The notes under the pieces: model-generated
Databases searched by the model: none
Seen by the model: the letters and a program-made list of their open reading frames with translations, nothing else
What the model was told of the DNA's origin: nothing
Made by a program: the position numbers and the translations under genes
Shown: positions 5,379 to 47,492 of the stretch, in pieces
How the letters are laid out: each line of letters opens with the position of its first letter
How positions within the stretch are numbered: position 1 is the first letter of the stretch
NCBI RefSeq assembly: GCF_018069755.1
Contig: NZ_JAGQDE010000011.1
Span: forward strand, 1 to 64,000
DNA from: Ideonella aquatica
GTDB taxonomy: Bacteria > Pseudomonadota > Gammaproteobacteria > Burkholderiales > Burkholderiaceae_C
Reading direction: 5' to 3'
Length of the DNA: 64,000 bases

Positions 5379-5422
5379 CCCCACCCGCATCAGCTTCAAC
5401 ATCTACCCGAACAGGAAAGACC

Positions 5423-7327: not shown

Positions 7328-7355
7328 GGCGCTCAGCCCCAGGCCTCTAGCCCAA

Positions 7356-7379
7356 CCGGGCGCACGCGTGTGCGCCCGG
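7356..7379 (+). terminator. GC-rich hairpin between cysNC and the permease gene
   Basis: A perfect 10-bp inverted repeat (CCGGGCGCAC / GTGCGCCCGG) with a 4-base loop lies 28 bases after the cysNC stop. No T-run follows, so it is either a weak or Rho-assisted terminator or an mRNA-stabilising hairpin separating cysNC from the next gene. Confidence 0.45.
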
Positions 7380-7396
7380 CCTGACGGAGTCATGTC

Positions 7397-9130: not shown

Positions 9131-9180
9131 AGGCGCCGCGGCGCTGCGTGCTACAACCCGGTCCTCTCAGGAGGACCTCC

Positions 9181-22535: not shown

Positions 22536-22712
22536 CTCGATCTCCTTGTGTAGATAAAAGACCAAAACTCAGAGAAATAGCGGTTGCACCCAAAGAGAGA
22601 CAATTCACCCACTCTACTAGCAGACCAGACTTAAGCTACTTACCTATCAATTGCCATTGGATACCAACGTGATTTACAAATATAAGGGCGCCCAATTCAC
22701 GGAACGATCGAT

Positions 22713-24005: not shown

Positions 24006-24047
24006 AATCTGGGACCTTCAGCAGAAGTAAATGTTATCCTTCGGAAT

Positions 24048-26008: not shown

Positions 26009-26022
26009 ACAATGCTCATGCG

Positions 26023-27015: not shown

Positions 27016-27023
27016 AGTTGCGA

Positions 27024-28382
27024 TTACCTTGCTTCGTAGAGCCTTCTTAGTGCGGCAGAAAGCCGAATCCAAATTTCCTCAAAATCAGATCGACGAGCAA
27101 TGAGAAAATAGCTGGGCCTAGTTGCTGTAGCTAGAGTTAAGTAGCTTATTGCACAAACAAATGCAGCCAAGTAGCCAAACACAACTCCCAGAGATGCGTT
27201 CTTTACGGTTCCAGCCCCTGGCAAAATGTAATTTAGGCAGATCGCAACAATAAATCCCACACCATAAATCACCAAGCCAAATCGCCTGTCGCCAGTCCCC
27301 GAGAATCCAGCATATATTATCTTAGTCACCACTATTAGGGGAGATCCGATTGATAGGACAACAAAGGCAGTGAGCATATCTGCGCTAGCGCGCCCGAAGA
27401 GCAAGTGACAGACCATCTCAGCCAAAAGCGCAAAAATAACTGCAGGGACTGTGAGTAAGGCAAGCAGTAAACGAGAGATCTTAGCTATGCGCGCAACTGC
27501 GTCCCCAGGACTCTTAGCTCTCGTTGAGTCTGAGAACAACACTAAGCCAATCGCTGCGGCTACTTCGAATAGGATCTGATTTGCTTGTAGCGCCGCGAAG
27601 AAGTTGCCGGCCGCCTCCGAGCCCTTCGCCTGTTGCACACTCCACACGCCAACTCTGTCGATCGATGTAACCAAGAGGACAGCAAGCGCGAAGGTAACGC
27701 CACTTTCGATCAGAATACGGGCGTCACTTGCCGATTTCGTCAACGTGGAATCTTTGGCGTCATTGCCGCTTGGGTCCAGAACCTCTTGGCTAGGTGTATC
27801 GAACCTTCGGCTCAATCGTATTATAAAGAAGGCAACCGAGGTTGCCACCAAAAACGACTGCAGCAGAATCAAAGATGTTACCGAGAGTCCCCCACCAGCA
27901 CTTGGAAACATCCATGCAACGAGTAAGCAAGCCGCAAAGAGCGCCCTTGGTAACGACTCAATTAAATTAAACGAACTGAAATCATTTAGGCCCAACATCG
28001 CGCCCTGCAACCAACCTACCAGTGTTAGCGTAATTACCCACACAGTACCTGATACGAATATGTCTATTGGGACGTTAGCCTTGTATAGCAAATGGTAGGT
28101 GGAACCAAGAACCACAATCAGTAGTAACGGGCTGGAGAGCATACTCGCACGGTAGTACTGCCCCAGCTCAATTGACCCAGAACCAAGAAGCTGCGCTCCA
28201 GACTGGCGTACGCCAAGATGCCCAATCGCAGAGATAATTGCACCAGCACTGACAACTAACCCGAAGAGTCCAAAATCACTCGCATCGAGAATTCTCGATA
28301 TCAGAATTATAGAAATTAGGTTTGCACCCTTCAGGACAAACCTTCCTGATATGGTTAATATTAAATTCTGGGCGAATCTCAA
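27024..28382 (-). CDS. wzx: Wzx-type oligosaccharide-lipid flippase
   Basis: 452 residues with about 12-14 membrane helices and the polysaccharide-biosynthesis-protein opening SGRFVLKGANLISIILISRI and LDASDFGLFGLVVSAGAIIS. The family moves undecaprenyl-linked repeat units across the inner membrane. The only suitable start is TTG 28382, which overlaps the murB stop by two bases, so translation is probably coupled. It lies 8 bases before the GT2 gene. Base composition is AT-richer than genes outside the block, as usual for acquired Wzx/Wzy cassettes. Confidence 0.86.
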   Translation of the reverse strand: MRFAQNLILTISGRFVLKGANLISIILISRILDASDFGLFGLVVSAGAIISAIGHLGVRQSGAQLLGSGSIELGQYYRASMLSSPLLLIVVLGSTYHLLYKANVPIDIFVSGTVWVITLTLVGWLQGAMLGLNDFSSFNLIESLPRALFAACLLVAWMFPSAGGGLSVTSLILLQSFLVATSVAFFIIRLSRRFDTPSQEVLDPSGNDAKDSTLTKSASDARILIESGVTFALAVLLVTSIDRVGVWSVQQAKGSEAAGNFFAALQANQILFEVAAAIGLVLFSDSTRAKSPGDAVARIAKISRLLLALLTVPAVIFALLAEMVCHLLFGRASADMLTAFVVLSIGSPLIVVTKIIYAGFSGTGDRRFGLVIYGVGFIVAICLNYILPGAGTVKNASLGVVFGYLAAFVCAISYLTLATATRPSYFLIARRSDFEEIWIRLSAALRRLYEAR

Positions 28383-29338
28383 TTCAGAACCTTGTGAGCC
28401 GGCGAAAAAATCCCATTCTCATCGACATACCTAACCTCAGCCGCCAACAGGTGACCAGTTTCCTCGTAGACACGCGTGCGGATAATGTGTATCAGGCTCA
28501 ATATGTCTGCAGAAAGCGCACCGCCGCAGTTAACTATGAAATTTGCATGCCTTTCAGAGACCTGCGCTCCTCCGACTCGATATCCTTTGAATCCCAACTC
28601 TTCAATTATCTTTCCAGGTGGGCCCACGCGCTCATACAGTGTTGGATCGCTAACGAATGTAGAACCGCAATTCGGCTGCTGCAGCGGAAACTTAAGTCGC
28701 CTCGACCTCAGAATGCTTAGCATCTCCTTCCTTGCGACCGACCGCCCAACATGGTCGTTTAGTTGCAAGGTTGCTGAAGCGATGAACTCTCCGTTGGATT
28801 GAAAGCCCGACCATCTGTGCGCAAAGCCAATTTCCCCAGGCTGCTTCTCCAGGCATTTGCCCTCTTTGTCAACTGAAGTTATGGCGGCAAGTGAACTTGA
28901 GATTGATTGTCGGCATGAGCCTCCATTCATGTAGATCAACCCGCCCAAGGTTCCTGGTATTCCGACAATATGCGCCAGATCCCGATAACCGAGGCTCATG
29001 GAGATCCTCGCAAGCCTTTGAGCGCTTACGCCCGACTCGGCGCAAATGGTATCGCGAGTTACGCGGGTTGACGCGAACCATGGCCCAATCTGAATGCACG
29101 GGCATCGCAGCCCCCTGTCCGAAAACAGAAGGTTGCTAGTGCTGCCAATGACAATTGGTGTAGTTCCTGCCCGCCGGAAATAAGCCTGGACATCCAAATA
29201 GCTAGCTATCGACTTGGGGCGTATGATAACGTCAGCGACTCCTCCAGTTCTCCATTGACTTATATCCGAGAGACGTACATTTGTATGAAGTATTTCTGGG
29301 AATCTGTTAACAAGACCCCCGATGAGCTCCTCATCCAT
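28379..29338 (-). CDS. murB: MurB-type UDP-N-acetylenolpyruvoylglucosamine reductase within the polysaccharide locus
   Basis: 319 residues, the size of a compact (type II) MurB. FAD-binding landmarks are PIVIGSTSNLLFSDRGL near 75 and AHIVGIPGTLGGLIYMNGG near 120. The active-site Ser is in NCGSTFVSDP and the C-terminal glutamate in AAEVRYVDENG. The enzyme reduces UDP-GlcNAc-enolpyruvate to UDP-N-acetylmuramate with NADPH. ATG 29338 is chosen because GGAG lies 6 bases upstream. It follows a MurA homologue by 38 bases, so the pair would make UDP-MurNAc. The essential cell-wall copy is expected elsewhere. I infer that this copy serves a muramic-acid-containing surface glycan. Confidence 0.85.
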   Translation of the reverse strand: MDEELIGGLVNRFPEILHTNVRLSDISQWRTGGVADVIIRPKSIASYLDVQAYFRRAGTTPIVIGSTSNLLFSDRGLRCPCIQIGPWFASTRVTRDTICAESGVSAQRLARISMSLGYRDLAHIVGIPGTLGGLIYMNGGSCRQSISSSLAAITSVDKEGKCLEKQPGEIGFAHRWSGFQSNGEFIASATLQLNDHVGRSVARKEMLSILRSRRLKFPLQQPNCGSTFVSDPTLYERVGPPGKIIEELGFKGYRVGGAQVSERHANFIVNCGGALSADILSLIHIIRTRVYEETGHLLAAEVRYVDENGIFSPAHKVLN

Positions 29339-29376
29339 TATCAACTCCGTTGAGCTGTAGTATCGTACGTATTTTC

Positions 29377-30648
29377 TTAATTCTGGATTGTTACCTGACC
29401 GCCAAGCGCCTGCATTTTTTCGACGATGTTCATATATCCCCTAGATATTTGCCAGGCGTCAGAGATCTCGGTCTCTCCGGACGCACCCAAGCCGCAGAGC
29501 ATCAGCGCGGCGCCGGCTCGTAGATCTAGCGCTCGCACTTGCGCCCCTCTTAAGCCCCCCCCCTGCCCGAATATCTTCAGCATGTCGCCCTCAACTGCAG
29601 TGCGAAGACCCATTTTGGAGAGTTCTTCGGCATAGCCATATCTTCCTGGAAATCGTAGATCTGTTATCCTTGATTCTCCATTGGCGAAGGCGCCCCACGA
29701 TGCCAATACAGGCTGCACATCAGAGTTTATGCCCGGATGTGGCCCGGTGCTAATTTCGATGGGATAACACTTACCGCCGCGAATGATAAGAGAGTCCTCT
29801 CCAGCATAGAATCGTGCTCCCGCAGCTCTCAAATGTGCCATTACCACTTCTAAGTCACCGAAGGGGAAACCCATAATTTCGATGTCTCCCTTGGTAATCG
29901 CAGCGGCCGCTACCCAGGTTATCGCCTCCATATTGTCGTTTATTACAGTGTGCTCGGCGCCATCCAGTTCCGAGACGCCGTGAATTTCTATTTGTTCCTG
30001 ACCATGAACAAAGATCTTTGCTCCCATCTTTCGGATCATCGCAATAAGGTCAAGGATCTCTGGCCGCACATGTGGATTCCAAATTCGAGTGACGCCTTTC
30101 GCCAGAGCCCCCATTAGTATTGCGTTCTCCGTTGCGCCTGTAGATCTCAGCGATAAATGTATATCAGCACCCGTGAGTCCCGACGGAGCCTCCGCGCAAA
30201 GATAGTCTCCTTCCTCCCAGACTCTCGCCCCCAACCGCTCCATCACCATTACATGGAGGTCATATTTTCTTTCCCCAAGTTTGCAGCCCCCAGGCAGGGG
30301 AACTGAGCCTACATGATGGCGCGCTAGAAGACCGCCTAGAATGAGCAAAGTGTTTCTGATTGAACGTTTGCTCCATTCAAGGCGCGTAGGCGGCGCTTGA
30401 CCCCTATCAATCGCTGAGATCTCTATTGAATCCTCATTCGTTACAACACACGATTTACCGAGGAGCTCCAGCATCTCAACGTGCAGTTCTGCGTCCAGTA
30501 GTCTCGCTGGATAGTTCTTCAGTCGAACTGTTCTTTTGGTCAATAGACTTGCCGCCAGTAGTCTAAGGGCCGAGTTTTTTGCCCCACTCAACGATACGAT
30601 GCCTTCAAGTCTTGAAGGCTTAACCAAAATTCTCTGAAGTTCAGACAT
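29377..30648 (-). CDS. murA: MurA-type UDP-N-acetylglucosamine 1-carboxyvinyltransferase within the polysaccharide locus
   Basis: 423 residues, the normal MurA length. The catalytic residues of the EPSP-synthase superfamily are kept: Lys24-Asn25 in SGAKNSAL, catalytic Cys122 in LPGGCKLGERKYDLH, and the general-base-type Asp in HPGINSDVQPVL. MurA moves enolpyruvate from PEP to UDP-GlcNAc. A good AAGGA ribosome-binding site precedes ATG 30648. The gene is flanked by murB and an acetyltransferase gene, deep within a Wzx/Wzy cassette of lower GC content. It is therefore probably an acquired second copy for polymer synthesis rather than the housekeeping enzyme. Confidence 0.9.
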   Translation of the reverse strand: MSELQRILVKPSRLEGIVSLSGAKNSALRLLAASLLTKRTVRLKNYPARLLDAELHVEMLELLGKSCVVTNEDSIEISAIDRGQAPPTRLEWSKRSIRNTLLILGGLLARHHVGSVPLPGGCKLGERKYDLHVMVMERLGARVWEEGDYLCAEAPSGLTGADIHLSLRSTGATENAILMGALAKGVTRIWNPHVRPEILDLIAMIRKMGAKIFVHGQEQIEIHGVSELDGAEHTVINDNMEAITWVAAAAITKGDIEIMGFPFGDLEVVMAHLRAAGARFYAGEDSLIIRGGKCYPIEISTGPHPGINSDVQPVLASWGAFANGESRITDLRFPGRYGYAEELSKMGLRTAVEGDMLKIFGQGGGLRGAQVRALDLRAGAALMLCGLGASGETEISDAWQISRGYMNIVEKMQALGGQVTIQN

Positions 30649-30650
30649 AA

Positions 30651-31130
30651 TTAGTCCTTGTTAGTGAGAATACAGCGTGCCGGCGCACCTACTGCCACAG
30701 AATATTCGGTGATATCTGTTAGCACAACAGCGTTAGCACCAATTGTGACGCCATCTCCGATATTAACCCTTCCGACAACGATGGCGCCAGCGAAGATGGT
30801 TACATTACTTCCTATGACGGGATAATTGCCCTCGGCGTAGTCACCTAATCGGGCCCCGCCAAGGGTAACACCCTGATAAATGGTGACGCCTTGGCCGAGG
30901 ACTACACCGTCGCCAATTACTATTGCTACAGGGTGAGGAAACTTGGTCCCTTTGGGGATCACCGCGTTCTCCGATATGAAGACACCCAGCTTCCTTTGCA
31001 TTCGTAGCACCAGAAGTCTGCTTAGCTTGACCATTCCTCTAGTTTTAGCCCACCTAGGCAAAGAGAGGTAGTTCTCCAGAACTGACCCAGATCCTCCAAG
31101 CATGTGTCCTGCGATTCTTCTTATCAGCAT
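30651..31130 (-). CDS. Serine-acetyltransferase-like hexapeptide O-acetyltransferase
   Basis: 159 residues from ATG 31130; a TTG at 31139 is also possible and neither has a strong ribosome-binding site. Left-handed beta-helix hexapeptide repeats are clear (VAIVIGDGVVLGQGVTIYQG; NYPVIGSNVTIFAGAIVVGR; VNIGDGVTIGANAVVLTDI). The arrangement resembles CysE-type LbH_SAT proteins but lacks most of the CysE N-terminal helical domain, so an acetyl-CoA-dependent sugar O-acetyltransferase is more likely than cysteine synthesis. First gene of the minus-strand serotype block, two bases before murA. Confidence 0.8.
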   Translation of the reverse strand: MLIRRIAGHMLGGSGSVLENYLSLPRWAKTRGMVKLSRLLVLRMQRKLGVFISENAVIPKGTKFPHPVAIVIGDGVVLGQGVTIYQGVTLGGARLGDYAEGNYPVIGSNVTIFAGAIVVGRVNIGDGVTIGANAVVLTDITEYSVAVGAPARCILTNKD

Positions 31131-32394
31131 AAGTCGCAACGAATTTTCTGTATTGTGGTTAGAAAGATTAGAGATTCGCAGTTAAATCGCGGGCCCGACG
31201 ACTCCACACCATCTTTATATTAGGACTTCTTTTGCAGGCTTTGTGGAATTCTGGCGATGAAGATCCCTTGCGACAATTAGGCCCAGTTCAGCGTCACAAC
31301 CGACGCCAGACTCGTCATGCATAAACAAGTTCTTTGCATTTATCTGAGTTTTTTAATCATGGGTGCTGATGCCCACCTCGCATCAGTGCTAAATAGACCA
31401 GAAGCATCACGATGTCGTCTCTGGATTCAGCTTAACTGATTTCTTATTCGCATAGTTGAATGAAGAAGTGCGCTATGTGACAGGACGCTGGTCGTAAGGG
31501 GTGAACGTAAATTTGACCGTTCAATCTCTTTACTTCCAAGGGTCGGCAGTTATCCCTTTTCTATCTAGATTCAACCTACGCATGCGGTTATGTAATTTCA
31601 GCCTGGAAAACCACAGTTAAAGCTTGCTCAACTGCTCATTATAGGTTCGCCACTTGGATTAAGAACGAAGGCGCCTTTGGCAGGCTCGTACCCCGGTTGC
31701 GTTCTGTTTGAGGACACTTCCATAGGTTATTGAATTTTCCATCAGGCACACGTCCAAGTGCATGGGACTGCAATTGAACTGCGCTAAGCACCGAGGTGCG
31801 CCACGTACGATCGCGTTTCTACCTGCGCTACCATGAGTATTCCTGGGCAGCGACTTGTTACTGCTGAGGGCGACGATTCATTCTGCTTACACCGTTACCA
31901 TCACACGTCCGAACTAAGACTGCATGGGCCTTGCCTCTTGGCTTCAGTCACCGCTCGTGTGATGCAAGTCCAGAAATAGGAAAGATTCCTCGCAATGGCC
32001 TCAAAACCGTCCAGTCGCGTTACCGCAAGCACCGGTTCGAGAAATTTTTTGAAACAGTGTTATGTACTGTCCATCTTGCGCTACGAAACCAGTGTCGATA
32101 GTTAATTTGAGGGCCGTGCACATTGCTAAGCAATTCGAGGCTGGCGCTAGCCCTTTAGTTAGCTTGAAGGTGGAGGCTAGCTTTGGGGCAGTGGTCCGGC
32201 TAGCTCGCGATTAAGGATTCCTTTATCAATTCTTACTCGCCCTGTACATGACAATTAACTCTAATGAAATTTGAAGTTTGAATACTTCGTACCGCTGCGC
32301 TATTTACTACTTCACGTGTACCGAGTACCAATCAGGGCGGCAATCTATCGGACAGTCAGGATGCGCCAATTCTCCCCAGAACAAGGCGACATTA
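31131..32394. other. Long gene-empty stretch upstream of the serotype-type block
   Basis: About 1.26 kb with no frame that looks coded on either strand, in a window that is otherwise almost gap-free. Base composition resembles the AT-richer block rather than the GC-rich core. It should contain the promoter of the minus-strand block. A TAATAT hexamer lies at about 31214-31219 on the minus strand, but I find no good -35 partner. Several GCTAGC-type short palindromes cluster at 32145-32205. It could be a long leader, a decayed gene region or a recombination scar. I see no recognisable RNA gene, and JUMPstart was not found. Confidence 0.5.
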
Positions 32395-36399: not shown

Positions 36400-36584
36400 G
36401 GGCAGGAAATTGGTGAAAGAGATGCGCTAACTGGCCGGGATTGTCGGCTACCTTGCTGACAGGCCAAGCGAGTGGCGTGCCAGGGGTGTGCCAGCGGTGT
36501 GGCGCTGGTGGTAACGCGAGGCTGCGCAGGGCTGGTCGGCCCAGGGCCGTGCACCATGACCCGCCAACAGGCTTGGACAGCGCG

Positions 36585-38768
36585 CTAGATGGGCGGTCGC
36601 AGCCGCAATTCGGGCATCGGCTCTGCGCGGTACGGGCCGAACTGATCCTCCAGGCTGGTCAGGCGGGCTTCCAGGTCGCTCACGGCCTGAACGGCTTGCA
36701 GCAGTGCATCGCGCTCACTGGTGGTCAGCATGCGTCCGGCCGGGTCGCCGGTGGCCTGCTGTGTCGGGTCGGGGGCGCTGGTGCTGCGCGGGTAGCGCGG
36801 CGTCAGCGGCCAGCTGCGGGTGGCCTCGTCCAGCAGCGCGGCCAGGTCCTGGCCGGTGCTGCGGCTGCGCACGGCCTCGGTATATCGGGCCAGGTGACGG
36901 CGCAGCGCGCGCAGCTCCACCACCGCCCGCACATAGGTCTGTTCCTGCCAACCACGGCTGGGCCGCCCGTCGGCTTGGGGGGCAAAGCGCTTGAGCAAGC
37001 GGTCAGCACCACGGGTGCCATACCTGTGGGCGATGCGCATGATCACGTCGCCACGCATGGCGATGTTGAGTTGGCCCTCGCCGCGCTTGAGGGCGATGCG
37101 CAGCACGCGGTTGCGCACGATGGGCAGGCGTCCGGCGACGCGGTCGTTCCAGTCCTTCATCGTCAGCACCATGCCCAGGACAACGCCCAGCAGGCGGCTG
37201 AACGCGCCGCGTTCGGGAATGCGCCCGGTGTTGGGATCGGGCTTCTCGGCGCCCGGAACCTCGCGCTGCCAGTTGTCGGCCTGACCCTCGCGGTGGGTTT
37301 CTGGCAGCCAGATGGCGTCGTCCTTGTAATCCTGCAGCCGGCGATCCAGGAGCAGCGCAAAGGTGGGCCAGCGCGGATGGGCGCGGTCAAACAGGTGGAC
37401 CGGGAAATTGGCGCACAGGCCGCCGTCGGCCAGCAGGCAGCGGCGCAGGGCTCGCCGCGGACCGGCGTCGGCGGAGCTGGCCTGTGCCTTGTCCGGGCGC
37501 GAGGTCTCGTAGTCCATGGCGTACACCGGCACCAACTCGAACAGCAACGGAAAGCACAGGCTCAGCCGGGCCGCCACCACGATGGGCATGTCGGCCGTGG
37601 GCAGCTCGCGCAGTGCGCTGGCCGGCACCTCGTGCCGGGGGCCGCCGGCGTGGGGGCCGACGCGCACCGGCGGGGGCTCCTGGTCATCGCTGCCGGACCG
37701 GGGGGCGTAGGGCACGGCAATCCGGTCCAGGGCGCGCATCAGGGCGGGCGGAAAGATGCGCGCCCACTCTTCCGGCAGGTAGTACAGGCGGGTCAGCGGC
37801 TCATCCAGCGGCAGGCGCACCGGGCGGCCCTGGGTGACGTTGCTGGTGAACATGGTCAGTCCGATGCCGGGCTCGTCGGGCGGCCCGCCATCGGGGCGTG
37901 GCCCAGGCCCGGGGCGGCCGCCGCGCGGCGCGGCCCACAGCTCGGCGAAGCTCAGCGGCGGGTCGTCCTCGCCGCGCCCCGCCGACAGCTGCACGCCGCG
38001 GTGCATCCACTCGACCAGCGCCTCCGAGCGGCCATCCTGGCTGTTGCCGGGACACAGGCCGTAGTCGTTGTCGGCCAGCGCCCGAAGGTCACGCAGGAAC
38101 AGCAGCACCGCCAGCAAGGCCACCAGGGCCAGGCCCACCGCCAGCAACGCCACGCCCCCAGCCAGTGCCTGCAGCGGGAGCCAGCCGTGTACGCGCGCCA
38201 GCAGCCAGGCCGCCACCGGGCTGCCGATCAGCACCAGGCACAGTGGCAGCCACCAGCCGTAGACCGTGGCCACGGTCCGAAACAGCCAGGTCACGCCGCC
38301 CTTGACGTCGGAGGAGAACTCCTTGTCGGGCGGCACAGGCTGGCCATAGCGCTGCACGGCAAGCACGAACAACTTGAACAGGCGCCGCACCGGCCGGCGT
38401 GGCTGGAACAGGCGCAGCATCAGGGCCTCGCCACGCTCGTTTTCCTGGGCCAGGTCGGCCGGCATGCGGCGCAAGGCCTCGAACGAGCGGTGGACGCCGT
38501 GGCAGCGGCCGTACTCGGCGGCGGCGGCCACGGTGGCCGCCACCGCCCCCACCGAGTTGCCGCCTATGTGGCGGAAGCGGTAGTGACGCGCCAAGCCCAC
38601 CAGCGCCCAGGGATAGACCACGCCGCTGGCCACACCGCCGTTGAGCACCAGGTCGCAGAACTGATCCGCGGGCGGCTCTTCGTCCACCGGCTCAGGGATG
38701 TTGGCGTAGCTCTGGGGGTCGAACACCGCAGCACGGTCGCGCCAGAGCCAGGCCCAGCGCACGCTCAT
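36585..38768 (-). CDS. Patatin-like phospholipase with membrane insertion
   Basis: 727 residues. The patatin oxyanion loop NGGVASG is at 43-49, nucleophile Ser72 is in GGNSVG and Asp448 in LADGGLCANFP completes the Ser-Asp dyad. The dyad residues are about 376 apart, far more than in compact patatins. The gap includes two or three membrane helices at about 170-226 and a long Pro/Gly-rich loop. Patatins release fatty acids from membrane lipids. The ATG at 38768 overlaps the stop of the DyP-type gene (ATGA), and the product is the last of a four-gene operon. The C-terminal 100 residues are helical and Arg-rich. The function in this operon (lipid release for oxidation) is inferred. Confidence 0.85.
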   Translation of the reverse strand: MSVRWAWLWRDRAAVFDPQSYANIPEPVDEEPPADQFCDLVLNGGVASGVVYPWALVGLARHYRFRHIGGNSVGAVAATVAAAAEYGRCHGVHRSFEALRRMPADLAQENERGEALMLRLFQPRRPVRRLFKLFVLAVQRYGQPVPPDKEFSSDVKGGVTWLFRTVATVYGWWLPLCLVLIGSPVAAWLLARVHGWLPLQALAGGVALLAVGLALVALLAVLLFLRDLRALADNDYGLCPGNSQDGRSEALVEWMHRGVQLSAGRGEDDPPLSFAELWAAPRGGRPGPGPRPDGGPPDEPGIGLTMFTSNVTQGRPVRLPLDEPLTRLYYLPEEWARIFPPALMRALDRIAVPYAPRSGSDDQEPPPVRVGPHAGGPRHEVPASALRELPTADMPIVVAARLSLCFPLLFELVPVYAMDYETSRPDKAQASSADAGPRRALRRCLLADGGLCANFPVHLFDRAHPRWPTFALLLDRRLQDYKDDAIWLPETHREGQADNWQREVPGAEKPDPNTGRIPERGAFSRLLGVVLGMVLTMKDWNDRVAGRLPIVRNRVLRIALKRGEGQLNIAMRGDVIMRIAHRYGTRGADRLLKRFAPQADGRPSRGWQEQTYVRAVVELRALRRHLARYTEAVRSRSTGQDLAALLDEATRSWPLTPRYPRSTSAPDPTQQATGDPAGRMLTTSERDALLQAVQAVSDLEARLTSLEDQFGPYRAEPMPELRLRPPI

Positions 38769-40306
38769 AGCCAGGGCCCCCGGTCCTCGGCCCGCACAAA
38801 GTCGTTGGTCAGCAGGGTGGTCAGCGCGCCGGCACTGGGATACCACGCATACATCAGGCCGCGCGGCCGGACGAACACCTTGAAGCCCTCAAGCCAGACA
38901 TCGCGCCAGCCCGCCATCGGCAGCAGCAGCCGGGCTGAGGGGTCGTCGTGCGGACCGATCAGCGGATCGAGCGCCCGGTCGTCCAGGTCGCGGCCCGGCG
39001 GCGAGGCTGCAACCCACTGGCCCAGCAGTTCCTCGAACTGTGACTGCAGGTCAGCGCAGAAGAAGTGGCCCAGCTGACCGCGCTCGATACCATCGGTGGG
39101 CAGTTGCTCCCAGCAGGCCGGGCCAAAGGGCACGCTGCGGCGCAGCAGCGGCCGCGGACGCCATGCGCCGTCGGCATCGGGCCGAGACTGCAGGCGTCGC
39201 ACATGCGAGCCGAAGGGGCAGCCCTGGCCAAGGCTGTCGGCTTCCTCGTAAAGGGCCGGTGTTGTGGACGAGGCCTTGGGGCGCAGCAGCTGCAGGGCGT
39301 AGGCGTCGCGCTTCTTCCAGCAATCGGCACGCGACTCACAGTCCTGTTTGCTGCAGAAACTGCCCCGCGACGGGCAGCTTGGCGCGATCGTGCCGGGCTC
39401 GATGCGCCGGCCGTCTGGCCAGCGGCCGCTGAGCTTGGCCTTGATGAGCTGGCGCGCCGTGGCGAGCGGCTCGTCCTTGCCCAACAGCACCAGCAGTTCA
39501 TCGGCCCAGCGGGTGACCGCCTGCTCGAAGGCCACCACGTCCTGCACGGCCGGACGGAACGCGCCGAAGCTGGCGTTGCGGAAAAACTCGCGCACGGCGC
39601 TGGGGGCGCGCGGCAGCGCCCAGCGGTTGATCCGCATGTCGTCGGGATGGCCCAGCAGCAGCGCGCCGGGCGCGTGCTGGCGATGGTCGAGCGCCTGCTG
39701 GGCGGCGGGGATGTCGGCGAGGGGCTCGATGGCGATGTCGCTCAGGTCGTCGCGCAGGCCGAAGTGGGCCCAGCGCCCCTCCTGGCCGCTGGGCGGCGGC
39801 AGGTGTGCGCCCCGGATCAGCGCCACAAAGGGCGGCGCACTGGCGGGGGTGGTCTTGAGCGCCAGCCACGCATCACGCAGCGAGCAGGCGGTCGTCTCGA
39901 CCAGGTGCGCAGGTCCGTGCAGCGTCACCAGCACATGGGCACGGTCGAGGGACAAATCAGGCCAGTCCTCCTGGGGTGGCTGCTGGTTGGCGATGCCATC
40001 ACCCACGGCCGCACGCCGCGCGGGCGCCCCGGCGGCGAAGGACGGCGCCAGGCTGCGGAAAACGCGCAGGTACTCGTCAGGAACCTTCAGTGCCTCCAGA
40101 CCCGCACAACTGAAGCCGATGCTGCAGGTCATGTCGCCCTGAGGGCGGGCGCCATGGCTGATCGGCTGCGATCGCAGCAGCCTGGCGGCGTCATGCGCCC
40201 GCCCGGCGGGCACCTGCAGTACGACGTGTCGCACCTCGGCCCCGGCGGGGCGGCGCAGCAGCACCGACTGGACGTCGGGGAAGGCTTCAGAGGCTCGGCG
40301 GTTCAT
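38765..40306 (-). CDS. DyP-type haem peroxidase with inserted four-cysteine segment
   Basis: 513 residues. The N-terminal ferredoxin-like half has CSIGFSCAGLEALKVPDEYL, the usual DyP opening. The distal motif appears as HFGLRDDLSDI at 181-191: Asp186 of the GxxDG motif is kept but the last Gly is Asp. The proximal His368 lies in GCPFGSHVRR and the distal Arg in LLRRSVPFGP near 390, so the haem residues are retained. An unusual insertion at 309-330 carries Cys311, Cys318, Cys323 and Cys329, which could hold a metal. An AAGGA ribosome-binding site precedes ATG 40306. It lies 15 bases after the P450-like gene and overlaps the patatin gene. No signal peptide, so it is cytoplasmic. Confidence 0.8.
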   Translation of the reverse strand: MNRRASEAFPDVQSVLLRRPAGAEVRHVVLQVPAGRAHDAARLLRSQPISHGARPQGDMTCSIGFSCAGLEALKVPDEYLRVFRSLAPSFAAGAPARRAAVGDGIANQQPPQEDWPDLSLDRAHVLVTLHGPAHLVETTACSLRDAWLALKTTPASAPPFVALIRGAHLPPPSGQEGRWAHFGLRDDLSDIAIEPLADIPAAQQALDHRQHAPGALLLGHPDDMRINRWALPRAPSAVREFFRNASFGAFRPAVQDVVAFEQAVTRWADELLVLLGKDEPLATARQLIKAKLSGRWPDGRRIEPGTIAPSCPSRGSFCSKQDCESRADCWKKRDAYALQLLRPKASSTTPALYEEADSLGQGCPFGSHVRRLQSRPDADGAWRPRPLLRRSVPFGPACWEQLPTDGIERGQLGHFFCADLQSQFEELLGQWVAASPPGRDLDDRALDPLIGPHDDPSARLLLPMAGWRDVWLEGFKVFVRPRGLMYAWYPSAGALTTLLTNDFVRAEDRGPWL

Positions 40307-40321
40307 CGCGCGTCCTTGGCG

Positions 40322-42148
40322 TCAACGGCGGCACATCGGCACGTCGCGGTTGGGATAGGCGCTGTACAGGTAGCCGGCCAGCGGTGCCCGGTTGAAGCGC
40401 TTGACGGTGGCGATGAATTCCTCGGGGAACGCGCTGACGGGGTGCGGCGGGGCGTCCTCCAGGTGTTCGAACAAGCCGTCGAAGAGATCGCCAGCGCGCA
40501 GCGCGAAGTGGTAGAGGTAGGGCTCAAGTTCACCGTTGTAGATGGTGCGCAGGATCAGCTGGGTGTCGTCGTCGCTGAACTCGAACCACGCGAAATGCAC
40601 ACCGCCGAAGCTGGTCAGCAGGTGCTCGATGCGAGGCACGGCAGCGGCAATCAGGCGGCGCAGCTGGGCGACATGCTCGGCCCGCGGCGACTTCACGCGC
40701 ATCGAGACAATCAGGTTGCGCTGGGCTCGGCTGCGTACGCGCTTGTAGGTGAGCGGCAACTGTGTGCAGGCCACACCCCACAGGCGCTGCATGGGGAAGT
40801 CATCGCCGGTGAGCGGATCGATGCGGCGCGCCAGACCCGGCAGGTGCAGCACCCGTTTCACCAGCGCGGTGATCAGCGGCAAGGCCAGGTCCTTGCCCAG
40901 GCACGGGTGCGCCGCCTGGCCATGGGCGGTGTGACCCCAGGCATGGGCGCAGACCTGCGCGCGCGCCTGCTCGACGTGCCGGGCCACGTCGAGCAGCAGC
41001 AGGCAGTCGTCGCCATCGGGGATGCGGGTGCCCGTTGGCAGTTGCTGCGCGCCGATGGTTCGGCGCGGTAGCACCGGCAGCGGCGGTTGCTGGGCGACCA
41101 GGTCTGCCACCTGAGCGGCCAGTGCCGCGGCGCTCATCTCGCGAAGCTCGGCCAGGCGTGGCGCCTGGCCAGGCGTCAGCAGCTGATCAACAACCTGGCA
41201 GACGGCCGTCTGGAGATTGCCCAGCGTGCCGGCGATCAGCATGGCGCAGACCATGGCGCGGTCGTGGCCTGACAGCGGGCTGGCCACCTCGGGCAGTTGC
41301 CGCAGCAGCGGCTGACCCAGCAACTGCAGCGACAGGTGATCCAGCGGCTGGACCCCCACAGGCGTGCGCGCAAGATCGGGCGGGCCAAAGCGCCGCGCCG
41401 CGCGCCGCAGGCTGTCGTACTCCTCGACCAGCGCCGAGATGCGCGTGATCAGCGCGGCCACGGCGCGTTGCCCCTCGGGCACGGTGGCGGGCTCGCTGAC
41501 GAAGTGGCGCCCGATGGCGACGTACTGCAGCGCCCGGTAGGTGGCCTGCGCGCTGCGCTCCAGCAGCCCGTGGTCCTGGAAGCCAAAGCCGAACACGATG
41601 CCCATGTAGCGCAGCGCGGCCTGGCCGGCCCAGGCGGCCAGATCAAAGTCGTCCTGCGTCAGCGCCAGCAGCGCCGACTGCTCCACCGCCCTCTCAGCCG
41701 CCTGGGCCCACAGGACGGACGGCTGACATTGCAACAGTTGGCGCACGAAAGCCTGCTGCTCGGCATGCTCCGGGCCGGCTGACGGGTCCCGGGCCAGCAG
41801 GAAGGCGCCGCCGCCCAGCTCAGCGTAGGGCAGGTTGCTGAAATGCTGCGGCTGGGTCAGGGCGTGCTGGATGTCCTGGACGTCGGTGATCAGCCAGACG
41901 CGCCGGAAGCCCTGCGGCGGCCGATCCCCCAGTGGCGGCGCCGGATCGTCGCGGCGGTGGACGCGGCTGGGCAGGCTGTAACACGGGTCTGACCTGAGCG
42001 CTGTGATCAGCGCCGGGTGGTCATCGGGATCGCACCAGTGATCGAAGAAGCGCCGGTTGCGCTCTTCGTCGAGCTGATCGCTGGGCAGCTGGTTGAGGCA
42101 CTCCAGCAGGCGATTGGCATCGAAGGGCGGTCGATCGTGGCGTCTCAT
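40322..42148 (-). CDS. Cytochrome P450-like protein with extra C-terminal domain
   Basis: 608 residues. The haem-thiolate region is HGQAAHPCLGKDLALPLI with Cys416, compared with the canonical FGxGxHxCxG: the Phe is His and the second Gly is Ala, while His, Cys and the final Gly are kept. The helical N-terminal 440 residues fit a P450 fold (ALRYMGIVFGFGFQDHGLL; MVCAMLIAGTLGNLQTAVCQ as the I-helix region). From about residue 465 an additional domain follows (NLIVSMRVKSPRAEHVAQLR; FAWFEFSDDDTQLILRTIYN), which I do not recognise beyond a possible ferredoxin-like alpha/beta fold. The start ATG overlaps the cyclase stop (ATGA). No membrane anchor. The substrate is probably a fatty acid or other lipid, judged from the patatin partner. 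Confidence 0.72.
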   Translation of the reverse strand: MRRHDRPPFDANRLLECLNQLPSDQLDEERNRRFFDHWCDPDDHPALITALRSDPCYSLPSRVHRRDDPAPPLGDRPPQGFRRVWLITDVQDIQHALTQPQHFSNLPYAELGGGAFLLARDPSAGPEHAEQQAFVRQLLQCQPSVLWAQAAERAVEQSALLALTQDDFDLAAWAGQAALRYMGIVFGFGFQDHGLLERSAQATYRALQYVAIGRHFVSEPATVPEGQRAVAALITRISALVEEYDSLRRAARRFGPPDLARTPVGVQPLDHLSLQLLGQPLLRQLPEVASPLSGHDRAMVCAMLIAGTLGNLQTAVCQVVDQLLTPGQAPRLAELREMSAAALAAQVADLVAQQPPLPVLPRRTIGAQQLPTGTRIPDGDDCLLLLDVARHVEQARAQVCAHAWGHTAHGQAAHPCLGKDLALPLITALVKRVLHLPGLARRIDPLTGDDFPMQRLWGVACTQLPLTYKRVRSRAQRNLIVSMRVKSPRAEHVAQLRRLIAAAVPRIEHLLTSFGGVHFAWFEFSDDDTQLILRTIYNGELEPYLYHFALRAGDLFDGLFEHLEDAPPHPVSAFPEEFIATVKRFNRAPLAGYLYSAYPNRDVPMCRR

Positions 42149-45100
42149 GCGGGCTCCCAGGGGACAGGGTGTCGGGATTCAAAGGCTGCGCCTTGCGACC
42201 AGGCGGCCTGGGCCTGGAGCGCCCAGCGGTGGTCGCGGCAGCGGGCATGGCTGCGGCCTACCTGATGCAGGGCAAGGTCGAGCAGCGCAGCGGCCTGAGT
42301 GCAGCGGCCCTGCGCCGCATGCCAGGCGCCCAGCGACAGGGCGCAGCGCAGTGCCAACCCGGGCTTGGCATGCCGCTGCGCCAGCCGCAGCGCGCGCGCC
42401 AGCAAGCCGCCTGTGGTGGCGGTGTCGCCGCGCTGCCAGGCGTGCAGGCCCACCAGACGGCGCAGCTCGGCGTGGTAGTACAGCTCTCGGATGTCGCGGC
42501 TGACGCGCTGGGCCTCGTCCAGCAGCGCACCGGCCCCGGCGGTGTCGCCCAGGCGCAGCAGGATCTCGGCCCGCGTCATCAGGTAGGTGGCGCAGGAGAT
42601 CCGGGCGCCGCCGCCGGTCCACAGCGCGTAGCCACGGTCCATGTCCTGGGCGCCGATGTCCACCTGGCCCCGGTCAGCCGCGAGCTGGCCGCGCACCATC
42701 CAGGCGTGAGCCAGCCAGACCTCGAACTGGCCACGCTCGCAGACATCGACCGCCTCGTCGGCGTGGGCAATGGCCGCCGCGGTGTCGCCGCACAGACGCT
42801 TGATGCTGGCTGCAAAGCCCAGCGCGACACCCAGGCTGAACGGGTGGTCCAGCGCGCGGGCGTGCGCCAGCAGCTGGTCCAGGCGATCCAGGGCGTCGCC
42901 GGCGCGTCCCAGCTCAAACAGGATCCAGGCCGAGTAGCCCAGGCACATCACCGCCGGATCCTGCACGGCGCTGCGCGGACGGGCCATGCCGCGGTAGTGT
43001 TCCAGGCAGGTTTCGAAACCGTCCAGCGCGTGTCGCCAGTGGCCGCGGTGGAAGCGCACATTGGCCTGTGCCCAGTGGGACTGCAGCGCCAGCAGCGGAT
43101 CGCGATGCCAGTCGGTGGCGGCCACCGCTTGGTCGGCAATCTGGCTGGCACGCCGCAGGTCGCCGCGCATGACATAGCAGGCCTCCAGGCCCAACTGGAT
43201 GCGGGTGAGGACCGCAGCGTCGTCCTGGCCCTTGGCCAGGACTTCGGCCTCGCGGTAGGCCTGTTCCACCTCGGCACTGCCGTAGCCCTGCAAAGCCAGC
43301 AGCGCCGCGGCCACGAGCTGCTGGGCGCGGGTGGCAAAGCGCGCGCGCACCAGCGGGTCGGACAGCTCGCCCGCCAGTGAGAGGCTGCGCCGGCCGAGCT
43401 CCACCGCCTCGCGGTAGGCCTGCCGGGCCGCCGCGCCGCGCGCAGCGGCAAACCAGGCGCGGCGCGCCTCGTCCAGCCGGCCGGCGGCCTGCAGGTGGGC
43501 AGCGATCAGCTCCGGCCGCTCACGCGGGATTTCCGGCGATACCGCCTCGATCAGGGTGGCGATCAGGCCATGCAGACGTTCGCGGTCGGCCGTGGGCGTG
43601 GACCGGTAGGCCACATCGCGGATCAGGGCGTGGCGGAACCGATAGCCCGGCTGCGCGCCGCTCAGGGGCAGCAGAAAGCCAGACTCCAGCAAACAGTCCA
43701 GGCTGCCCTGGCGCCGCGCCTGCCGCACGAAGGGGTCGTCCAGCTCCAGCAGCCGCGCCACGTGGTCGGCCCGGCATTCGCGCCCGAAGACCGACAGCAG
43801 CTGCGCCATGGCACGGTCCAGGCCCAGCTCGTCCAGGCGCGACACCAGCAGGTCCTCGAGTGTGGCGGGCAGTTCGTCGAGGGCCTCGACGCCCCGCTGC
43901 TGCAGCATGCGCAGCGATTCTTCGAGGAACAGTGGCACGCCCTCGGCACGATCGATGATGCGCTGCAAGACCCAGGCCTGCGCACCGCCAAGCTCGCGGG
44001 CCAGTTCACGCATGGCCTCGTCGGGCAGGCCGCGCAGCGTCAGCTCGTGGGCGCCGGCCACGTGGAGCCTGGGGGCGCTGCCGGTGCGCTCGCCCAGGAC
44101 CACCACGCGGGCTTGTGGGGCCGCGCCTTGACGCAATCGATCCAGGAGCTGCAGGCTGGACGGGTCGATCCAGTGGGCGTCATCGACCACCAGGCAGCAG
44201 GGTGCGGCAGCGATGATCGCCTGCAGGCAGGCCAACAGCACCGGACCCACGCGCTGGTCAGCAGGCGCCGGCTCCAGCGCGTCGGCTGTGGGCACCAGCA
44301 GCCGCACCAGCTGTTCGACCTGCTCGGGCGCGGACTCGCCGACCGTGTGGTTGACCAGCCGGCGCACGGCGGGCATGGACGCATCGCTGCCGATGCGCCA
44401 GTGCTCGCGCAACAGGTCAATGATGGCCGCAAAAGGGCTGCGCTCGGCCAGCGGGTGGCCGCTCAGGCGCAGGCAGCCCAGGCCACGCTGACGCACGACC
44501 TGGCTGAACTCGGCCAGCAGGCGTGACTTGCCCAGGCCGGCTTCGCCGCGCACCAGGCACCACTGGGGTCCGCTGTGCTGCGCCTCGTCGAGCAAGCGGC
44601 TCAGCGTGTGAAGCTCCTGGCCGCGCCCCACAAAGCGGTGCGCGCCGCCATGCACGACGCCCTGCAGCGCCACCACATCGGTCAGGCGGTACAAGGTGGT
44701 GCTGATGCCGAAACCCTTGATGGGCACGTCTTGCGCGTGGATGTCCAGCACGAACTCCGGCCCCACCCTGGGCAGGGTGGCCGGGGCGACGACGATCTGG
44801 CCCGGCTGGGCGTGTTCGCGCGCGCGTGCGGCGAGATGCACGTCGGCGCCATAGGCCAGACGCGCATTGATGGCCACCTCTCCCGATGCCACGCCGATGC
44901 GCACCTTCAGCCCCAGGCGGTCGAGGGTCTGGCTGAGCCGCCAGGCGGCCATCAGCGCACGCTTGGCCGCTCCTTCCACGGCACGAGGAAATCCGAAATA
45001 GGCCATCAGGCCGTCATCGCCCTGCGGCATCTCGAGCGTGCCGTGGAAATGCTCGGTCACCTCGCGGCAATGGCGGTAGTAGGCCTGCATGGTCTGGCCG

Positions 45101-45816
45101 TAGCGCTCGCCCTTTTCGCTGTTGACCAAGGGCGTGGAGTCGACAAGATCGATGCTCAGCGCCGTCACCGGACGCCACGCCTGCTCTGCGTCATCCAGCA
45201 GGCCTTTGGCGTCGCCATACAGCCGACAGCTGTCGAGCGGCAGGCCCAACTGCTTCAGTGAGTGCTCCAGCGCCTGGGAGAACCACAGCGGGTCTCGCCA
45301 GTGGCTGCGCAGAAGCGTCTCCAGCAAGCTGCGCTGAGCGGGTGGCCACTGCTCGTCGACCACCACCAGCGGCCGCCCCTGCGACTGCGCCTGGGCCACG
45401 GCCACCAGGTGACCAGGGGCGTTGGCGGCGCGCGTGACCACCAAACGGGGCGCATCGGCGGCCACGGCATCCGGCAGCCCGACGTCGGTGATGTAGCGCG
45501 TGATCGCCCGGCCGGGCAGGCCGAGCTGGGTCCATTCGCGCTCCCAGGGCCAATCGTCCAACGCGGCGGGCAGTTGCAGGCTGAGTCGGTCTCCAGGGTG
45601 CTGGCAGAGGACCTGGCCCACCGAGTCCGGCAGTGCCCGTTGATGGGGTGCCGGCCAGGGGGCGTGGCCAGTGATCATCCGGGTGCGGCCGTCGCTCAAC
45701 CAGACACGCAGACCACCGCCGGGCGCCTGGTCCAGGCTGAGCAGCCAATGGACAGGGGCATGGCGGAAATGGGCCGCTACAGCACCCGCGGACGCACGAT
45801 CGACAGCCGTGTCCAT
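42145..45816 (-). CDS. Class III nucleotide cyclase / AAA ATPase / TPR regulator
   Basis: 1223 residues. Residues 1-215 are an unrecognised N-terminal part. Residues 217-380 form a class III cyclase domain: SIDLVDST with metal-binding Asp223, GDDGLMAYFGFP with Asp267, and RIGVASGEVAI. Residues 395-690 are an AAA/STAND ATPase with Walker A GEAGLGKS at 424-431 and Walker B LVVDDAHWID near 546. The remainder is helical repeats of TPR type. Similar cyclase-ATPase-TPR proteins are large signal integrators. It is the first gene of the operon, with a GGAGGGGGG ribosome-binding site before ATG 45816. The promoter should lie in the 257-base gap shared with the divergent ribonuclease gene. Whether the product is cAMP or cGMP is not shown. 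Confidence 0.86.
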   Translation of the reverse strand: MDTAVDRASAGAVAAHFRHAPVHWLLSLDQAPGGGLRVWLSDGRTRMITGHAPWPAPHQRALPDSVGQVLCQHPGDRLSLQLPAALDDWPWEREWTQLGLPGRAITRYITDVGLPDAVAADAPRLVVTRAANAPGHLVAVAQAQSQGRPLVVVDEQWPPAQRSLLETLLRSHWRDPLWFSQALEHSLKQLGLPLDSCRLYGDAKGLLDDAEQAWRPVTALSIDLVDSTPLVNSEKGERYGQTMQAYYRHCREVTEHFHGTLEMPQGDDGLMAYFGFPRAVEGAAKRALMAAWRLSQTLDRLGLKVRIGVASGEVAINARLAYGADVHLAARAREHAQPGQIVVAPATLPRVGPEFVLDIHAQDVPIKGFGISTTLYRLTDVVALQGVVHGGAHRFVGRGQELHTLSRLLDEAQHSGPQWCLVRGEAGLGKSRLLAEFSQVVRQRGLGCLRLSGHPLAERSPFAAIIDLLREHWRIGSDASMPAVRRLVNHTVGESAPEQVEQLVRLLVPTADALEPAPADQRVGPVLLACLQAIIAAAPCCLVVDDAHWIDPSSLQLLDRLRQGAAPQARVVVLGERTGSAPRLHVAGAHELTLRGLPDEAMRELARELGGAQAWVLQRIIDRAEGVPLFLEESLRMLQQRGVEALDELPATLEDLLVSRLDELGLDRAMAQLLSVFGRECRADHVARLLELDDPFVRQARRQGSLDCLLESGFLLPLSGAQPGYRFRHALIRDVAYRSTPTADRERLHGLIATLIEAVSPEIPRERPELIAAHLQAAGRLDEARRAWFAAARGAAARQAYREAVELGRRSLSLAGELSDPLVRARFATRAQQLVAAALLALQGYGSAEVEQAYREAEVLAKGQDDAAVLTRIQLGLEACYVMRGDLRRASQIADQAVAATDWHRDPLLALQSHWAQANVRFHRGHWRHALDGFETCLEHYRGMARPRSAVQDPAVMCLGYSAWILFELGRAGDALDRLDQLLAHARALDHPFSLGVALGFAASIKRLCGDTAAAIAHADEAVDVCERGQFEVWLAHAWMVRGQLAADRGQVDIGAQDMDRGYALWTGGGARISCATYLMTRAEILLRLGDTAGAGALLDEAQRVSRDIRELYYHAELRRLVGLHAWQRGDTATTGGLLARALRLAQRHAKPGLALRCALSLGAWHAAQGRCTQAAALLDLALHQVGRSHARCRDHRWALQAQAAWSQGAAFESRHPVPWEPA

Positions 45817-46073
45817 GTTGACGCGCCCCCCTCCCGTGGGTCCGACGATCGGCCCTGCATCTGACGCCAGACCATTGTGCTGCCGGCGGGTGGGGAGCGC
45901 GCAATTGGGGCCGGTCCGGAGGATCGACCGGCAGCGCCCCGCACCAACCCAGGGCCTGGCCGCTTGTTCGAGGGCGTGTGCTTGCCCGGGAGATCCCTCT
46001 CCAGTGGGATCGACGAGCTGGGGGCGCCTGGGCCAGACTGCCTGACCGACAAGCACAAGACAAGGGCAGGGAC

Positions 46074-47492
46074 ATGGAATTGCTTCACCACGGCGCCACC
46101 CGCGGCGTCACCGGCTCGTGCCACCAGTTGCTGGCCGATTGCGGCCGCTCGGTGCTGGTGGATTGCGGGTTGTTCCAGGGCGCAGAAACCTCCTCCGACG
46201 GCAGCGCTGGCGCGGGGCGGCTGGACGTGGGCTTTGCGCTGCAGGGCGTGCAGGCGCTGGTGCTCACGCATGTCCACATTGACCACGTGGGGCGCGTGCC
46301 GCAGCTGGTGGCGGCGGGTTTTGAGGGGCCCATCCTGTGCAGCCAGGCCTCGGCCGAGCTGCTGCCGCTGGTGCTGGAAGACGCCATGGAAATCGGCTTT
46401 GCGGCCGAGCGCCATCTGGTGGCGCCGCTGCTGGCGCGGCTGCGTCAGCGCCTGCAGCCGCTGCACTACGGCCGCTGGCACACGCTGTGGGACGACGCCC
46501 GCGGCCAGCTGATGGTGCGGCTGCAGCCGGCCGGCCACATCCTGGGCTCGGCCTTTGTAGAGCTGGACCTGCGCGAGCCCGGCCGCACCTCGCAACGCAT
46601 CGTGTTCTCGGGCGATCTGGGCGCCACCGACACGCCGCTGCTGCCCGATCCCGCCCTGCCGCGCGGCGGCGCCGATGTGCTGGTGCTTGAAAGCACCTAC
46701 GGCAACCGCCTGCACGATGACCGGCGCCAGCGCCGCCAGCGCCTGCAGGCCGTCATTGAACGCGCGCTGGCCAACCGCGGCACGGTGCTGATCCCGGCCT
46801 TCAGCATTGGCCGCACGCAGGAGCTGCTGTACGAGCTGGAAGACATCGTCCACACCCAGCGCCAGCAGCCCGCGGCGCCGGGGCTGGCCTGGGGCGACCT
46901 GGCCGTGGTGGTCGACTCCCCGCTGGCGGCCGATTTCACACGCGGCTACGCGCGGCTCAAGGCCTACTGGGACGATGAAGCCCGGGCCCAGCTGGCGGCG
47001 GGGCGGCACCCGCTGGACTTCTCGCAGCTGCAGACGGTGGGGCCGCATGACCAGCACCTGCAGGTGGTGAACCACCTGGCGCGCACCGGCGAGCCGGCCA
47101 TCGTGATTGCCGCCAGCGGCATGTGCGCGGGCGGGCGCATCGTGAACTACCTGAAAGCCCTGCTGCCCGATGCCCGCCACGACGTGCTGCTGTGCGGCTA
47201 CCAGGCGGTGGGCACGCCGGGCCGGCGCCTGCAGGAACAGGCGGGCCGCGCCCCGGACCCGTCCGCCCGCGTTGACCTGGACGGCCAGACCGTGCCCATC
47301 CGCGCCCATGTCCACCTGCTGGGCGGCTACTCGGCCCACGCCGACCAGGCCCAGCTGCTGGCCTGGGTGGCGGGCCTGCCGCGCCCGCCGCGCCAGCTGC
47401 GCCTGGTCCACGGCGACGCCACCGCCAAGGCCATGCTGGCCGGCCTGCTGCGCCAGCGCTACCCCGGCACCGAGGTCCTGATCCCGGGTTGA
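46074..47492 (+). CDS. Metallo-beta-lactamase/beta-CASP ribonuclease (YSH1-like)
   Basis: 472 residues. The metallo-beta-lactamase motif HVHIDH near residue 64 is followed by FSGDLGATDTPLLPDP and the beta-CASP region with LESTYGNR, IPAFSIGRTQELLYEL, SGMCAGGRIVNYL and the C-terminal HLLGGYSAHAD zinc histidines. The family includes RNA endo/exonucleases related to CPSF-73 and archaeal aCPSF. Bacterial members of this size usually act on RNA, but their physiological substrates are little known. ATG 46074 follows an AGGGCAGGGA ribosome-binding sequence. Divergent from the cyclase operon; no functional link is visible. Confidence 0.9.
   Translation: MELLHHGATRGVTGSCHQLLADCGRSVLVDCGLFQGAETSSDGSAGAGRLDVGFALQGVQALVLTHVHIDHVGRVPQLVAAGFEGPILCSQASAELLPLVLEDAMEIGFAAERHLVAPLLARLRQRLQPLHYGRWHTLWDDARGQLMVRLQPAGHILGSAFVELDLREPGRTSQRIVFSGDLGATDTPLLPDPALPRGGADVLVLESTYGNRLHDDRRQRRQRLQAVIERALANRGTVLIPAFSIGRTQELLYELEDIVHTQRQQPAAPGLAWGDLAVVVDSPLAADFTRGYARLKAYWDDEARAQLAAGRHPLDFSQLQTVGPHDQHLQVVNHLARTGEPAIVIAASGMCAGGRIVNYLKALLPDARHDVLLCGYQAVGTPGRRLQEQAGRAPDPSARVDLDGQTVPIRAHVHLLGGYSAHADQAQLLAWVAGLPRPPRQLRLVHGDATAKAMLAGLLRQRYPGTEVLIPG

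Follow-up and report, generated by a model that had tools for sequence, protein, structure and literature searches.

A possible signal-gated lipid-oxidation module in Ideonella aquatica: a cyclase/ATPase regulator, a P450-like protein, a DyP-type peroxidase and a membrane patatin inherited together

What could a signalling ATPase, a P450-like protein, a DyP-type peroxidase and a membrane patatin be doing in one gene cluster? The question is raised by a locus of Ideonella aquatica, found in the 64,000-nt stretch of contig NZ_JAGQDE010000011.1 (positions 1 to 64,000) that is called the window hereafter. A first-pass annotation had described four minus-strand genes there, with ATGA overlaps at 42145-42148 and 38765-38768 and a 15-base gap at 40307-40321, and this layout is exact as claimed; the gene identities it had assigned (cyclase/ATPase regulator, P450-like protein, DyP, membrane patatin) are upheld by domain, profile and fold matches. 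Third-position GC is 0.85-0.89 in all four genes and exceeds that of positions 1 and 2, and GC is highest at position 1 in the three long antisense open reading frames (ORFs) checked; given this pattern, the four genes and not the antisense ORFs are taken as coding. We propose, tentatively and at a probability somewhat short of even, that they form a signal-gated lipid-oxidation cassette, whose product would be a signal of the oxylipin kind or a lipid that modifies the membrane.

The four genes travel together. The P450-like protein was searched in 299 genomes of the family and matched 20, a patchy distribution in which 14 genomes, the window's included, carry the long form; the other six match chiefly an alpha-beta domain and were not counted as type A. 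Two further loci came from a genome-contig search (L045, and L046, which is the same Methylibium contig as L006). The comparison set, L045 included, holds 14 loci besides the window's in which the P450-like gene is full-length; at several of them neighbour genes were recovered by tblastn. Regulator, P450 and DyP keep the same order and strand in 14/14 of these loci. The intergenic gaps, which vary with the start codons chosen, measure -58 to +234 bases, and the conserved neighbourhood that the first-pass annotation had asked for is thus found. The patatin comes next in 10 of the 14 and is fused to the DyP in L035; the L037 contig stops inside the DyP, and any patatin there lies outside the visible sequence. 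With a patatin profile, 19 of these 299 genomes gave matches, and the 11 strongest matches are all in module genomes, one of them (G297) on a different contig. Tree splits are shared between P450 and DyP (9/12), DyP and regulator (10/12) and P450 and regulator (7/12), and distance correlations reach 0.79-0.96 across the 11 loci carrying all four genes. The gene trees therefore look largely congruent, and the four-gene set is, on order and descent, a co-inherited unit. The P450-like gene is absent from the 15 other congeneric genomes; a plasmid search with the P450-like protein returned no match and a viral contig search no relative.

Taken alone, the window's P450-like protein has no match in Pfam (E ≤ 1), NCBIfam (0.1), PDB sequences (0.1) or PADLOC (0.1). 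Its family profile matches PDB P450s, and PF00067 is matched by 6 of the 15 family members at E ≤ 1 (best 1.4e-08). Fold prediction had been suggested as a check, and the AlphaFold model (mean pLDDT 77) matches 3ejd (P450BioI; E 1.6e-10) along with many other solved P450s; 10 matches at E ≤ 0.001 were found in BFVD, mostly viral P450s. The predicted fold is that of a P450. H414 and G418, which flank the predicted ligand C416 in the haem-thiolate loop, are kept in 15/15 proteins, and the haem cysteine is present in 33/33 P450s of a wider alignment, from which two candidates, D_L140 and D_L145, had been rejected as catalase-like and dropped. The K-helix ExxR is kept in 8/15 type A proteins, 0/3 patatin-linked fusions and 15/15 others. 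The I helix departs from the usual pattern throughout: the stretch linking the conserved Gly with the Thr/Asn position contains no acid in any of the 33 aligned P450s, and the acid-alcohol pair of O2-activating monooxygenases thus lacks its acid in all of them. An ordinary oxygen-activating P450 is disfavoured by such a helix. MAFFT aligns N311 with the Thr of a G-x-x-P-T-like motif in most B, D and E types, and T-x-G-N is found in 8/15 type A P450s, the window's among them.

The window's DyP, too, is weak on its own in family libraries (TIGR01413 at 7e-06, under its cut-off). A 15-member profile of its family matches solved DyPs full-length (8re3, 7anv and 2d3q, E 2.8e-56 to 8.3e-42), and D186, H368, R389 and R390 are invariant in 15/15; we take D186 to be the distal Asp, R389 and R390 the distal Arg residues and H368 the proximal His. 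By fold match and haem-pocket residues, the protein is a predicted DyP.

At its C-terminus the P450-like protein bears an alpha-beta domain, for which Pfam has no match and the PDB none that is credible (best E 0.069). In a phylum sample, 26 of 398 genomes carry this domain, the window's own included, and the wider set built on it holds 26 other loci from 25 genomes (L077, L079, L082 and L083 were rows of the alpha-beta profile). In 26/26 the domain is fused to a DyP or has one close by, separated by about one gene at most. As third partner, 16 loci have a P450 and 7 a catalase-like protein; 3 have neither (L080, L146, L149), and the two occur together in 0/26 of the regions fetched. P450-alpha-beta-DyP fusions are found in Sulfitobacter pontiacus and on plasmid pNL2 of Novosphingobium aromaticivorans DSM 12444, where the fusion gene SARO_RS19865 adjoins the SARP regulator gene SARO_RS19860, while Skermanella rosea has the three as separate genes; in L147 it is the DyP and the catalase-like protein that are fused. 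L140 carries on one strand two alpha-beta genes, a DyP, a catalase-like gene and a regulator, in that order and with no patatin, that is, the window's parts with the P450 exchanged and the regulator in last, not first, place. The regulator profile has matches near 7/26 of the wider loci (L082, L136, L140, L142, L152, L153, L154), the cyclase part alone accounting for the match in L082, L142, L153 and L154.

These counts depend on profiles (P450b and CAT) that include many of the proteins they then found, L078 and L147 not being CAT rows. Most P450 assignments have independent support from the A1 profile or Pfam; L039 and L103 are P450s by alignment and leave-out profile only (9e-41 and 3e-15), and L104 by the A1 profile (4.4e-07), the leave-out profile missing it. 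The best PDB matches of the five-row catalase-like profile are 3e4w (2.8e-09), a catalase-related protein, and then coral allene oxide synthase 1u5u (4.8e-07), with true catalases ranking below the latter (3e-06 and weaker). Five leave-one-out tests recovered the rows at 3.9e-47 or better, which supports treating the five proteins as one putative family.

The window's patatin matches PF01734 at 5.7e-10; its GxSxG Ser and DGG Asp are kept in 11/11 family members, and hydrophobic segments of membrane-helix length occur at residues ~145-260 in 10/11. Eight loci around weaker patatin paralogues were fetched, including one from the genome of the window itself (the G283 paralogue was left out). Three, L099, L103 and L104, show a second layout, in which the patatin precedes a single alpha-beta-DyP-P450 polypeptide of 1177-1236 aa and a cyclase-AAA-TPR (STAND-cyclase) protein is encoded on the opposite strand. 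The P450 part of these fusions is the weakest (the A1 profile finds L099 and L104, the leave-out profile L099 and L103), and its cysteine loop is present in all three. Neither DyP nor P450 was found in L097, L098, L100, L101 or L102, of which L100 ends at the patatin and L098 is cut. The third layout pairs an alpha-beta-DyP-P450 protein (L040, L041, L043; split in L042) with an adjoining Trans_reg_C-STAND protein, and the fetched regions of L040-L043 contain no patatin. The paralogue of the window's own genome (L097, G000:C55:148001-165000, at 5102-9532) is a second membrane patatin that starts 18 bases after a NAD_binding_8 (FAD-type) gene, possibly another lipid-modifying pair.

The regulator reads, from its N-terminus, as a CHAT-like region, a class III cyclase-like domain, an AAA_16/STAND ATPase with Walker A and B motifs kept, and a TPR region; AAA_16 and Guanylate_cyc are above the Pfam cut-off and TPR is weaker. 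The CHAT-like region is without the usual His/Cys by eye, and Pfam CHAT is matched by 1/15 family members (4.5e-05). The first-pass annotation had the operon switched on by a cyclic nucleotide or a sensed ligand, and the cyclic-nucleotide part fares unevenly. Consistent with it, the metal aspartates D223 and D268 and R331 are kept in 15/15 regulators, and genes of the CRP type (cNMP-binding) flank 4/14 other loci, a raw count with no background rate (L006 5130-6059, L029 3475-4179, L030 16347-17006 and L035 17204-18001). Against it, with columns assigned by eye, the substrate Lys column holds Pro in 14/15 and Phe in 1/15, and the transition-state Asn column His in 14/15 and Asn in none. Some class III cyclases, Rv1900c for one, are without these Lys/Asn residues, and their loss is no proof of inactivity.

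Put together, the parts suggest the following route. The regulator would sense a signal and switch the pathway on, and the patatin would then release acyl chains of membrane lipids. Docked via the alpha-beta domain, the DyP would oxidise these chains in a peroxide-driven or dioxygenase-like reaction; the P450, needing no electron-transfer partner, may isomerise, dehydrate or cleave the organic hydroperoxide so formed, a step modelled on CYP74, prostacyclin synthase (PGIS) and the fungal diol-synthase P450s. The outcome would be a signal resembling oxylipins or a lipid that alters the membrane. The main argument for hydroperoxide handling is the exchange of P450 and catalase-like protein, because both protein types make allene oxides: according to PMC5617202, these are produced by P450s and by the structurally unrelated catalase-related allene oxide synthase cAOS. 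Hydroperoxide handling is also favoured because the P450s lack the oxygen-activating acid. Further support comes from the fixed order in 14/14 loci, the largely congruent trees and the re-assembly of the same parts in the three second-layout loci. The lipid-release and lipid-oxidation module of the first-pass annotation is in this way partly supported, the exchange in sister loci having made it likelier.

Several observations weigh against the proposed route. No DyP is known to us to produce lipid hydroperoxides, and Burkholderiales are usually without polyunsaturated acids. Lipid release would not be universal, since the patatin is missing from L029, L030 and L032 (3/14) and, by profile, from all 26 wider loci. 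The catalase-like proteins resemble allene oxide synthase only distantly, 2/5 of those scanned are recognised as catalase by Pfam, and the distal His position is, by eye, Asn in L083 and L145. ExxR is lost in 7/15 type A P450s and the window P450 is without it, which makes haem binding less certain in these proteins; the first-pass expectation of haem in both enzymes thus has invariant haem-ligand residues in 15 P450s and 15 DyPs on its side and this missing motif against it. Finally, the T-x-G-N string is also given for prostacyclin synthase around Asn287 in PMC13049297, according to which the Asn is dispensable in some enzymes. The CYP51 profile alignment matches the catalytic Thr with G310, not N311 (that position is Gly in 12/15 type A P450s), and the PGIS parallel is therefore a string match only.

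The most serious competitor, which we consider unlikely, is lipid-peroxide repair: the patatin would excise peroxidised chains, the DyP and the P450 or catalase-like protein would reduce their hydroperoxides or convert these by rearrangement into harmless products, and the regulator would sense oxidative or membrane stress. The same gene anatomy serves it and it explains much of the same evidence. DyPs and catalase-like proteins typically consume peroxides, the interchange of P450 and catalase-like protein fits as well, and no dioxygenase activity is required of the DyP. STAND, class III cyclase and SARP regulators would, however, be unusual for housekeeping repair, and the distribution is patchy, as described above.

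Cell defence, in which the STAND protein would detect an invader or conflict and the patatin and oxidising enzymes would damage the cell's own membrane, seems to us quite improbable. It has in its favour the STAND ATPase-TPR layout with a CHAT-like region, and patatins are membrane effectors in some CBASS systems. The module sits in a variable slot, and the neighbourhood of a Rhizobium relative includes a CHAT gene and a restriction system. CBASS, Pycsar and Avs likewise use a nucleotide-cyclase-like or STAND sensor. Strong matches of core proteins to defence models are lacking, however: PADLOC matches are limited to the regulator's cyclase and ATPase domains (PycC at 7.6e-06 on the cyclase domain, the best, and Avs2 at 0.00013, both weak), and the P450-like, DyP and patatin proteins have no match at 0.1. 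Enrichment in defence islands, a check proposed earlier, gave a mixed answer, as the 116 flanking proteins yielded matches to 31 PADLOC families at 1e-10, but none of these families was matched by more than 3 proteins (each by 1-3, with no background rate). Two haem enzymes with conserved pockets would also be an odd effector.

A specialised-metabolite or degradation cluster, with the P450 and the DyP acting on a non-lipid substrate, is very unlikely in our judgement. The broad substrates of P450s and DyPs would allow it, a SARP regulator adjoins a relative, and RoxA-like di-haem cytochrome c genes occur near an alpha-beta-DyP pair (L080 3384-6816, by Pfam) and near a P450 (L081 6675-10109, by eye). 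Yet no Pfam family exceeds 4 of the 116 flanking proteins among the 25 families listed out of 159, and the patatin is part of two distinct layouts. That unrelated genes have clustered here by chance is refuted by the order kept in 14/14 loci, the independent fusions and the congruent trees.

How far, then, does the proposed lipid-oxidation cassette resemble known systems? Fungal linoleate diol synthase/Ppo proteins are fusions of a haem dioxygenase and a P450; many module relatives likewise combine a P450 with a haem peroxidase-type domain on a single chain, and in both the P450 is outside the ordinary oxygen-activating type. Their N-terminal peroxidase-cyclooxygenase domain is not found here, the partner being a DyP, and the module is bacterial and adds the alpha-beta domain, a regulator and a patatin. 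The coral allene oxide synthase-lipoxygenase and other catalase-related enzymes acting on fatty-acid hydroperoxides are among the nearest PDB matches of the catalase-like protein present in 7/26 loci; the module's partner is a DyP and not a lipoxygenase, the match is distant and the distal residue varies. CYP74 P450s use hydroperoxides without oxygen or redox partners. Their clan is reported also from some Proteobacteria (PMC8124189); the module P450, in contrast, has a DyP partner, and no CYP74 was recognised by name among the 60 PDB matches listed out of 124. In the Pseudomonas oleate-diol synthase PA2077/PA2078, fatty-acid oxygenation is done by two haem proteins (PMC4496055), which are di-haem cytochrome c peroxidases. 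TIGR03903, the TOMM kinase/cyclase STAND model, aligns to the cyclase-AAA-TPR region of the regulator (3.1e-84, 283.7 bits), below its cut-off of 705.75, and the module regulator has a CHAT-like N-terminus. The titles and abstract starts listed by searches of open PMC papers, which leave subscription journals and preprints outside, describe no DyP-P450 fusion, no DyP-P450-patatin cluster and no alpha-beta domain of this kind, in line with the first-pass remark that no four-part system was known.

A broader claim, which we hold more loosely than the cassette itself and consider doubtful, is that these loci represent an undescribed class of bacterial oxylipin-type pathway across Pseudomonadota, with a DyP replacing cyclooxygenase or lipoxygenase and passing lipid hydroperoxides, by way of a new alpha-beta docking domain, to a P450 or an unrelated catalase-like isomerase, of which the window's family would be the patatin-fed, STAND-switched form. 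If true, lipid-signal chemistry of the prostaglandin, jasmonate and fungal-oxylipin type would have been assembled independently in bacteria, under the control of a STAND ATPase of the kind behind immune and developmental switches. Since the third enzyme comes in two kinds, the hydroperoxide idea lends itself to a direct test by product comparison. Even if the lipid reading fails, DyP-P450 fusions, a domain without a family entry and ExxR-less P450s with a haem Cys should interest enzymologists.

Table 1. Features of the four-gene locus (window positions).
Feature	Coordinates	Strand	Remarks
Variable block between UDP-glucose dehydrogenase and beta-CASP hydrolase genes	36406..45993	.	
Patatin gene	36585..38768	-	Pfam PF01734; frame open back to GTG at 38846
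DyP-like gene	38765..40306	-	Family profile
P450-like gene	40322..42148	-	Family profile and fold
Alpha-beta domain at P450 C-terminus	40325..40738	-	Common to DyP-linked proteins across the phylum
C416 codon, predicted haem thiolate ligand, H-x-C-x-G	40901..40903	-	Invariant 15/15
N311 codon, predicted I helix	41216..41218	-	Invariant 15/15; no preceding acid
Regulator gene	42145..45816	-	ATG start; frame open back to GTG at 46056

The module nearly fills the interval between its two flanking genes (Table 1). In two congeners, the nearest one among them, other ORFs occupy the module's slot, the same two genes being ~3.0 kb apart in G011 and ~13.6 kb apart in G002; the module has been gained or lost as one block. 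The flanking beta-CASP metallo-hydrolase (45978-47492) matches Pfam Beta-Casp above cut-off, and aCPSF1 and Cas14 models below their NCBIfam cut-offs. Among the pooled flanking proteins, two match SNF2-type defence helicase models (ZorD/DpdE) and three PycTIR/TIR-effector models. Elsewhere, alpha-beta-DyP genes with neither a P450 nor a catalase-like partner are followed by a gene of the endonuclease/exonuclease/phosphatase family in L157 (6899-11068) and L146 (8381-13001), and in Rhizobium leguminosarum there is a CHAT gene upstream. On the patatin side of the module, window positions 22000-32000 have a GC of 48-53%, against 61-74% elsewhere in the window, which suggests that this stretch is foreign.

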